Origin: Tepiditoga spiralis
GTDB taxonomy: Bacteria; Thermotogota; Thermotogae; Petrotogales; Petrotogaceae
Direction: 5' to 3'
NCBI RefSeq assembly: GCF_014701195.1
Contig: NZ_AP018712.1
Location: 2,126,501-2,190,500, forward strand
Length of the DNA stretch: 64,000 bases
Shown: one piece after another, positions 43,355 through 46,188 of the stretch
Numbering within the stretch: position 1 is the first letter of the stretch
Layout of the letters: each line of letters begins with the position of its first letter
Notes under the pieces: generated by a model
The model's database searches: none
What the model was told of the DNA's origin: nothing
What the model saw: the letters and a program-made list of their open reading frames with translations, nothing else
Position numbers and translations under genes: made by a program

Positions 43355-45661
43355 TTACACCTCCACAACGGTAACCCCTGTGCCACCTTCATTTGGTTTT
43401 CCAACCCTAAAACTTTTTATTTCTTTACAATTTCTTAAGTATTCCCATATTCCCAAAGATAATTTTCCAGTTCCTTTGCCATGAATTATATAACCTTTAT
43501 TAAAATTTGAAAATAACATATCAGAAATAAGATTTTCTATTTCTGGTATAGATTCAGCTACTGTAAACCCTCTTAAATCTATTTCTGGTATTTTTGTACT
43601 TGAGTTTGAAAAAGAGGTAACTTTATTTATTTTTTCTTTTTTCTTCGTTGGTATTAATTCGTTTATATTATAAGTTAAATTAATAGGTGAATTTTCAATT
43701 TTAATTTCTGCTTTATTCTTTTTTATAGATATAACCCTTCCAATAGTTCCACCTGGAGCTTTTACATCCATACCAACTTTTATGGTATAACTATTCTTAA
43801 CCTCATTTTTTTTATTTAATATTTCAATTTTATTAGAAATATCTTCTAATTTTTTTAAATTTTTCTTTAAAGAATCTGTGTTTTTTTGATTAGATGCATG
43901 TTTTATATCACTCATTATATTATAAACTTCATTTTTTAAAAATCTTATTTCATTTTTAAGTTTTAAAGTTTCATTATCAAGTTTTTCAACTTCTTTATTT
44001 TTCAATTTCTGATATTTTTTTTCATATTGTTTTTTCAATTGTTCTATTTCATATTTTTTCATTTTTATCTTATTCTTTTCTTCTTCAATTGTTTCAAAAG
44101 AATTAGCCATTTTTGAAAATAAATGCTCACTTTTTATATATTCTTCGCCTATATTATTTTGTGCATCTCTAAGTAATTCTTCATCAAATCCCATTCTTCT
44201 TGAAATTTCTATTGCATGTGAAGCACCAGGAACTCCTATTAATATTTTATATGTTGGTCTTAATGTTTGAACATCAAACGACATGGAGGCTGTTTCTAAT
44301 CTTTTTTCCTCTATTGAATAAGTTTTTATTTCAGAAAGATGTGAAGTTATAAATAAAATGGAATTTTTATTTAATAATCTTTTTATTATAGCTCTACCTA
44401 AAGCAGCTCCTTCAATTGGATCTGTTCCTGTTCCAAGTTCATCTATTAAGATTAATGAATATTCATTTGCTTCATCTAATATTATTTTTAAATTTTTTAA
44501 ATGCGAAGAAAATGTACTAAGATTTTGTGTTACGCTTTGTGAATCTCCTATATCTGTAAATATATTTTTTATATACGGTAATTTTGCCTCATAAGATAAT
44601 ATAGGAAAACCAGCATGAGATAATAAAAAAGCAAGACCTATTGATTTTAATGTGACTGTTTTTCCACCAGTATTTGGACCAGTTATAATCATTCCTTCTT
44701 CATTTAATTTTAAATTCAAAGGAATAACTTCACTTTTAGGGATTAAAGGATGTCTCAATCCATTAAAAAATATCTTTTTATCTTGTTCACTTGGAGTAAC
44801 ATATATTCCTTTATTATTTATTGCATAATTTGCTTTTCCTATCATACTATCTATGTATGAAATTACTTTTATATTATTTTTAATAGATTTTAATCTTTTT
44901 ACCGTTTCAAAATTTATATGTGAAATAATTTTTGAAATTTCAGTTTTTTCATCAGACTTTAATTTCAAAAGTTCTTCATTTAACTCTATTAATTTTTCGG
45001 GTTCTATAAAAAAAGTTGATCCAGAATCAGATTTTCCAACAAACATTCCTTTAACTCTACTTCTATATTCACTTTTTACTGCAAGACATTGTCTTTCATT
45101 CCTAATTATTGGTCTATCTATTGATAAATATTTTCCAAACTTATTTATCAAAGATGATAAAGTTCCAGAAGTTTTATTTTTTATTCTATTTATATTTTTT
45201 CTTATTGTAAATAAAGACAAAGTAGCGTTATCTTCTATTTCACCATCTATGCTTATAGTTTTATAGAGCATAGATACATATTCTCTATGATAAATAAAAT
45301 GAGAAAATTGTTCTTCAATATTTTTATCAAAGTTTTGTTTATTTTTACTAAAGATATCATATATTTGATTTAAAAAATTTGCAATATTTCTATACTCTTT
45401 TATTTCTACTAAAGAATTTAATTCTATTTTTTCTAATGTTTCTGTTATATCTGGTAAACCTCTTAAATCAATGTATTTTCCTGTATTAAAAAGATTAAAA
45501 AAACTTATTGAAATATCTATTTCAATTTTTATTTGATCTATATTGAGCATTTTAAAATTATTTTTTATAAAATCCCTTCCATATTTTGTATGACAATTTT
45601 CAGAAATTTTATTTAATGTTTCATATATTTGTAAGTCATTGTATAGTTTTTCTTTTAAAAT
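43355..45661 (-). CDS. mutS2: Endonuclease MutS2, probable AUU start
   Basis: A 768-residue MutS2: ATPase with GPNTGGKTVTLKS, LIDELGTGTDP and TSHLSEIKTY, a central coiled coil, and the C-terminal Smr nuclease domain (EIDLRGFTV, IIHGKGTGKL). The only ATG start (45550) lacks a ribosome binding site and would remove 37 residues that look like the normal N-terminus (KLYNDLQIYETLNKISE...YGRDFI). In that frame no ATG, GTG or TTG exists before 45550 back to the preceding stop. An ATT at 45661 follows GGTGGAG by five bases, so I propose an AUU start. It overlaps the upstream gene's stop by seven bases. Confidence 0.9.
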   Translation of the reverse strand: MLKEKLYNDLQIYETLNKISENCHTKYGRDFIKNNFKMLNIDQIKIEIDISISFFNLFNTGKYIDLRGLPDITETLEKIELNSLVEIKEYRNIANFLNQIYDIFSKNKQNFDKNIEEQFSHFIYHREYVSMLYKTISIDGEIEDNATLSLFTIRKNINRIKNKTSGTLSSLINKFGKYLSIDRPIIRNERQCLAVKSEYRSRVKGMFVGKSDSGSTFFIEPEKLIELNEELLKLKSDEKTEISKIISHINFETVKRLKSIKNNIKVISYIDSMIGKANYAINNKGIYVTPSEQDKKIFFNGLRHPLIPKSEVIPLNLKLNEEGMIITGPNTGGKTVTLKSIGLAFLLSHAGFPILSYEAKLPYIKNIFTDIGDSQSVTQNLSTFSSHLKNLKIILDEANEYSLILIDELGTGTDPIEGAALGRAIIKRLLNKNSILFITSHLSEIKTYSIEEKRLETASMSFDVQTLRPTYKILIGVPGASHAIEISRRMGFDEELLRDAQNNIGEEYIKSEHLFSKMANSFETIEEEKNKIKMKKYEIEQLKKQYEKKYQKLKNKEVEKLDNETLKLKNEIRFLKNEVYNIMSDIKHASNQKNTDSLKKNLKKLEDISNKIEILNKKNEVKNSYTIKVGMDVKAPGGTIGRVISIKKNKAEIKIENSPINLTYNINELIPTKKKEKINKVTSFSNSSTKIPEIDLRGFTVAESIPEIENLISDMLFSNFNKGYIIHGKGTGKLSLGIWEYLRNCKEIKSFRVGKPNEGGTGVTVVEV

Positions 45662-46188
45662 TGTAACTCCACCCCCAAAAATACAGGTATATAATTAATT
45701 ATAGTATAATCATCATTTGATTTATAATATCTTGTTTCATAACTAGAACTCAAATGGAATATTCCTATATTTAATCCACCTCCAACTAATACTTCCGTTG
45801 AAAAAGATACTAAATTGTCTTCGCTATGAACACCACCATATGCAATTATAGAGTAATTTATATTTTCTATTATTTTACCTTTATACACTACGTTTAACCC
45901 CAATGAATAAGATATTGTTCCAATTTTCGGATTATATAAATTTAACATTGTATCTTTAAAATTATTATAAAAAAAACCAAAGTATGGTCCAAAATATATT
46001 TCATTTGAATCTTCTGTTGGAACTAAATAACTTATTCTTCCTCCAATATAATCTGCTTTCAAATTTGTATCAAAATTCGTTATAGCAGATGTAGCACTTT
46101 GAGTTACTTCATAAGAATAATTAAAAAATATTTTAGAAAAATTAAATATAGTAAAAGATATGATTATAAATAAAAATATTTTTTTCAA
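45655..46188 (-). CDS. Predicted small outer-membrane beta-barrel protein
   Basis: A 177-residue protein with a hydrophobic N-terminus (MKKIFLFIIISFTIF) acting as signal peptide, then alternating strands rich in Tyr, Phe, Ser and Gly and a C-terminal Phe (VELQF), the usual signal for barrel insertion. It resembles in style the 803-1237 protein but I see no shared sequence. It overlaps dxs by 4 bases and mutS2 by 7, so it is translated as part of the operon. Function unknown. Confidence 0.65.
   Translation of the reverse strand: MKKIFLFIIISFTIFNFSKIFFNYSYEVTQSATSAITNFDTNLKADYIGGRISYLVPTEDSNEIYFGPYFGFFYNNFKDTMLNLYNPKIGTISYSLGLNVVYKGKIIENINYSIIAYGGVHSEDNLVSFSTEVLVGGGLNIGIFHLSSSYETRYYKSNDDYTIINYIPVFLGVELQF

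Follow-up and report, generated by a model that had tools for sequence, protein, structure and literature searches.

The mutS2 locus of Tepiditoga spiralis

The window analysed here is a stretch of 64,000 nucleotides from the genome of Tepiditoga spiralis (contig NZ_AP018712.1, positions 2,126,501 to 2,190,500). It carries a mutS2 gene on the minus strand, directly behind and partly within a small gene of the same orientation. The features of the junction are the following:

45655..46188, minus strand: upstream gene, coding for a small outer-membrane-barrel-like protein that ends in GVELQF and a stop; 7-nt overlap with mutS2
45655..45657, minus strand: TAA stop of the upstream gene, read from the sequence
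45667..45676, minus strand: Shine-Dalgarno GGGGGTGGAG, 5 nt 5' of the mutS2 ATT, matching the 16S 3' end
45659..45661, minus strand: proposed ATT (AUU) start codon of mutS2; kept as ATT in 14 of 14 genomes from seven genera and matched by ATG at the equivalent codon of the eighth genus
45551..45658, minus strand: three-helix N-terminal segment of MutS2, made up of the 36 residues between the AUU codon and the first canonical start
45548..45550, minus strand: ATG, first canonical codon of the mutS2 frame; rejected as main start, being neither conserved nor preceded by a Shine-Dalgarno
43355..45661, minus strand: mutS2 coding sequence read from the putative AUU, 768 residues plus stop (TIGR01069; B. 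subtilis MutS2, 8qpp)

The mutS2 frame is preceded by an in-frame stop, TAA at 45697-45695 on the minus strand, and stays open down to the stop at 43355. After the TAA the frame reads TTA TAT ACC TGT ATT TTT GGG GGT GGA GTT ACA ATT TTA AAA GAA AAA, and no ATG, GTG or TTG occurs in it before the ATG at 45550. The ATT at 45661-45659 lies exactly 37 codons ahead of this ATG. Reading the frame thus bore out the original prediction of a 37-codon extension that lacks any canonical start back to the preceding stop. The prediction had also placed the ATT five bases after GGTGGAG, overlapping the TAA of the upstream gene. The spacing was correct (GGTGGAG at 45673-45667), but ATT and TAA share no base and are separated by one T. 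The last codons of the upstream gene are CAA TTT TAA, and the overlap of this gene with mutS2 comprises the seven nucleotides ATTTTAA (45661-45655).

The 16S 3' end is GGATCACCTCCTTT, and its duplex with the mutS2 Shine-Dalgarno was predicted at -13.1 kcal/mol. The predicted duplexes at the tested mutS2 starts, all strong and properly spaced, ranged from -9.0 to -16.3 kcal/mol. The ATG at 45550 lies in the context ttttataaaaaataattttaaaATG and has no Shine-Dalgarno. A second in-frame ATT (45682) precedes the Shine-Dalgarno and is not part of the region of homology. The second codon, UUA, pairs worse than AUU with the initiator anticodon and was for this reason ruled out as a start. Folding of the RNA across the gene junction revealed no special structure (z +1.1), and no Rfam element was found at the start site.

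The upstream protein had no match in Pfam or NCBIfam, so that the designation barrel-like refers only to its signal-like N-terminus and its C-terminal Phe, a residue conserved in the family. The TTG start of its gene overlaps the stop of dxs as TTGA (46185-46188); dxs, the upstream gene and mutS2 thus form a chain of overlapping genes.

The N-terminal extension as part of MutS2

The translated frame gave a full-length equivalog match to the NCBIfam model for mutS2, TIGR01069 (668 bits against a cut-off of 400), in which residues 4-767 correspond to model positions 2-789; the domains PF00488 (MutS V ATPase) and PF01713 (Smr) were matched as well. A phmmer alignment with B. subtilis MutS2 (8qpp; aligned over 2-783) set residue 3 against residue 2 of that protein. 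By both the model and the structure, homology begins two to three residues after the ATT at 45661-45659. Counted from the conserved L-(E/D)-(F/I) motif, Met1 of B. subtilis MutS2 coincides exactly with the ATT in most relatives; the window has one extra codon. The N-terminal segment was homologous in an alignment of 20 relatives. The extension accordingly represents the normal MutS2 N-terminus, as had been proposed, given that TIGR01069, the B. subtilis structure and the 20 relatives all align from the ATT; the relatives do not align from the ATG at 45550.

An AlphaFold2 model based on the family alignment reached pLDDT values of 75, 94, 95 and 93 for residues 1-40 in blocks of ten. It places helices at residues 2-9, 12-20 and 26-34, all three of which would be removed by a start at 45550. 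Selection on the segment was assessed in two genomes of genus g3, in which codons 1-28 all lie 5' of the first canonical codon. These codons showed a dN of 0.16 and a dS of 1.29, compared with 0.19 and 1.69 downstream. The dN/dS ratio is about the same on both sides of the first canonical codon, and the mutS2 codons that precede it are under ordinary purifying selection.

Start codons in the family

The mutS2 start was examined in all 21 genomes of the family, which represent eight genera. ATT-TTA or ATT-TTG was present at this position in 14 genomes from seven genera, in every one of which the upstream stop ends at +7, and 11 of these 14 have no canonical alternative nearby. The first canonical codon is scattered among the relatives (+1, +8, +30, +31, +36, +37 or +55) and, apart from the +1 TTG of g5 and g8, is not preceded by a Shine-Dalgarno. 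In the three genomes of g5 and g8 the upstream stop is TGA, hence a TTG directly follows the ATT; this TTG may be the mutS2 start or share that role. A TAA in the mutS2 frame immediately 5' of the ATT leaves nothing upstream usable in g2, g7 and g8, which pins the start in these genera. The seven genomes of genus g6 carry an ATG three to six bases past the upstream stop, in the same alignment column as the ATT.

The tree placed g6 as sister to all other genera of the family. The ATT genomes form a supported clade with branches of up to about one change per site, in which the ATT is kept at a protein identity of approximately 45-52% between members. The ATG in the corresponding column of the sister genus points to a single gain or loss of the ATT, at the base of the family. 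The question raised originally, whether relatives have AUU or an ordinary start, was thereby answered in favour of AUU in seven genera, with ATG in g6 only, and the same ATT in independent genomes rules out a base change or sequencing error. In one relative (L025, G020) the mutS2 match contains many stop codons, being either a broken gene copy or a misassembly.

Taken together, the homology, the ATT in 14 of 14 genomes, the ATG in the sister genus, the purifying selection and the confident fold support the predicted AUU, and from these comparisons translation of mutS2 almost certainly starts at 45661-45659. Conservation of the ATT was also considered as proof of selection on the start codon itself, an argument that is weakened by the overlapping gene. 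The two T of the ATT belong to the conserved Phe codon of the upstream gene, and the A falls on the third position of the preceding codon, where A is usual (59-100% of the K and Q codons of this gene have it there). As the last codons of the upstream gene nearly force the three letters, their conservation is weak evidence for selection on AUU.

mutS2 starts in other families

The region around the mutS2 start was also inspected in 60 additional genomes of the class and in the genome G101. Most of the class genomes start mutS2 with ATG, GTG or TTG. A second family, f3, has ATA-GAR at the start in 10 of 10 genomes (three genera), with the Shine-Dalgarno GGAGGTG 6-8 nt upstream of the ATA. No canonical codon lies between the Shine-Dalgarno and the ATA in any of the 10 genomes, and the first canonical codon follows at least five codons past the ATA, within conserved sequence. 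The upstream gene ends 21-39 nt before the ATA, so that the genes do not overlap; an overlap with the upstream stop in the form of ATAG was considered and dropped on account of this distance. In G101, a further member of f3, an ATT takes the position of the ATA behind GGAGGTG, and mutS2 probably starts with AUU, a case rendered slightly ambiguous by a GTG inside the Shine-Dalgarno. In G092 and G098, which belong to family f11, an ATA was found behind GGAGGTGA. Non-canonical mutS2 starts were hence present in three families, one of which belongs to a different order from the other two. The starts in f3 and f11 lend independent support to the AUU start in the family of the window. A scan of genome contigs matched MutS paralogues only.

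Frequency of non-canonical starts

The baseline comprised the window, 400 kb of the same genome and 200 kb from each of four relatives. The window contains 62 long frames that do not overlap, and no real gene among them other than mutS2 has its first canonical start further than about 20 codons into the frame. Such starts were otherwise rare: the 400-kb sample contained one other convincing case among about 340 frames (one among about 370 when given for the sampled frames of this genome), and the four relatives yielded a few single candidates apart from mutS2 and infC. These counts are lower bounds, since genes with a close next canonical codon are missed by the screen. The other case in the T. 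spiralis genome is a flavodoxin/ferredoxin-type gene (L148 10534-11319, minus strand; near G000:C1 1,830,500-1,831,300) with no canonical start for 88 codons, in which the arrangement AAAGGAGGG-ATTAAT-ATT suggests another AUU start. Apparent ATT starts were also observed in an IclR-type regulator of one relative (L217 15572-16324), behind AGGAAGGTGA, and in a Cmr1-like CRISPR gene of a relative (L189 15113-16399), behind GGGGGTG.

The gene infC, which encodes IF3 (L054, L044-L064), starts with AUA in most genera of the family and with AUU in g6, in each case behind a Shine-Dalgarno of the AAGGA type; some doubt applies to g1 and g4, where an in-frame ATG lies inside the Shine-Dalgarno. Related families start infC with AUA or AUC. 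The AUA and AUU found here agree with the known infC starts, AUU in E. coli and AUA in S. aureus (PMC13009471).

Discussion

An AUU start combined with a weak, coupled and IF3-responsive output of MutS2 is, as a whole, the explanation that we favour with good confidence. The initiator fMet-tRNA would decode the AUU with a mismatch at the third base, and the strong Shine-Dalgarno within the end of the upstream gene would hold the ribosome at this poor start codon. The 7-nt overlap makes coupling of mutS2 to the upstream gene plausible: ribosomes that terminate at the TAA, one base further on, may re-initiate at the AUU. IF3 rejects AUU and AUA starts (PMC13009471; PMC10158994), therefore the output of MutS2 should be low. 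Natural AUU and AUA starts of S. aureus reach about 10% of the AUG output, in one case up to 30%, and are modulated by IF3 (PMC13009471). Judged by E. coli and S. aureus, MutS2 would be made at a small fraction of the AUG level, and more of it would be synthesised once there are more free 30S subunits than IF3, as is the case for infC. We thus infer a low, IF3-sensitive expression of mutS2. In B. subtilis, MutS2 is a rescue factor that splits collided ribosomes (PMC10897456). Speculatively, such a protein could benefit from being kept at a low level that tracks the state of the ribosome pool. It is rather doubtful that selection gave mutS2 and infC of the phylum their shared IF3-rejected starts and thereby made MutS2 synthesis depend on the ratio of free 30S subunits to IF3.

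Three known systems invite comparison. In E. coli infC the AUU is required for control by IF3 (Butler 1987, as cited in PMC9845219). Like infC, mutS2 has its putative AUU behind a Shine-Dalgarno and a product acting on ribosomal subunits; unlike infC, it overlaps the upstream gene and has no possibility of autocontrol, so that IF3 could act only in trans. The AUU of E. coli pcnB was shown experimentally to keep expression low (Binns and Masters 2002, as cited in PMC13009471). It resembles the mutS2 case as an AUU on a gene other than infC, and differs in gene, phylum and the experimental proof, the mutS2 start being read from sequence. Ribosome profiling and reporters established the AUA of ccpN (S. 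aureus, B. subtilis) and the AUU of S. aureus cvfC1 (PMC13009471). These genes share with mutS2 a conserved AUU or AUA and a strong, extended Shine-Dalgarno, as well as an infC with AUA in the same organism. Their mapped starts belong to a transcriptional repressor and a small protein, whereas mutS2 encodes a ribosome-rescue ATPase.

The main rival is an AUU start that serves no regulatory purpose and persists as a frozen by-product of the gene overlap, with the Shine-Dalgarno compensating for the poor codon. A change from ATT to ATG would turn the C-terminal Phe (TTT) of the upstream protein into Cys, which would freeze the ATT, and such a neutral accident is possible in the family of the window. 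The identical geometry in 14 of 14 genomes, the conserved Phe and the ATG of g6, where the mutS2 start has moved past the upstream stop, all agree with it. It fails for the AUA family f3, where the genes do not overlap: it leaves the AUA and AUU starts there without an explanation, and none of the 10 genomes (three genera) shows the single transition from AUA to AUG that would suffice. Neither does it account for the AUA in G092 and G098. Overall, we regard this neutral reading as the less probable one, albeit one to be taken seriously.

The other readings dispense with the AUU start. Any gene finder restricted to ATG, GTG and TTG would call the ATG at 45550, as the first canonical codon, and leave the 37 codons as an untranslated leader. 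This is highly improbable in view of the conserved homologous residues and helices upstream, the dN well below dS ahead of the first canonical codon in g3, and an ATG that is itself not conserved and has no Shine-Dalgarno. Even more remote is a -1 frameshift fusing the upstream protein to MutS2. The 7-nt overlap and the position of MutS2 in the -1 frame would permit it, but no X-XXY-YYZ heptamer is present, and g2, g7 and g8 would leave only the TTT ahead of the stop as a slip site, where tRNA-Phe would have to re-pair on AUU. The fusion would moreover place MutS2 behind a signal-like sequence, and f3 has no overlap at all. A sequencing error or a broken mutS2, conceivable for a window taken from a single assembly, can practically be dismissed given the identical ATT in 14 independent genomes and a frame intact over 768 codons.

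To our knowledge, an AUU start is known for very few genes other than infC and pcnB, and the conserved cases described are mostly regulators. Our literature search found no report of an AUU or AUA start for mutS2. The observation also reaches further than the original prediction had claimed, as AUA and AUU starts of mutS2 occur in f3 and AUA starts in genomes of f11. Gene finders that accept only ATG, GTG and TTG cut three conserved helices off MutS2. With AUU or AUA starts in two or more separate families of a single phylum, this ribosome-rescue ATPase would provide a natural test case for the control of a gene by IF3 in trans.
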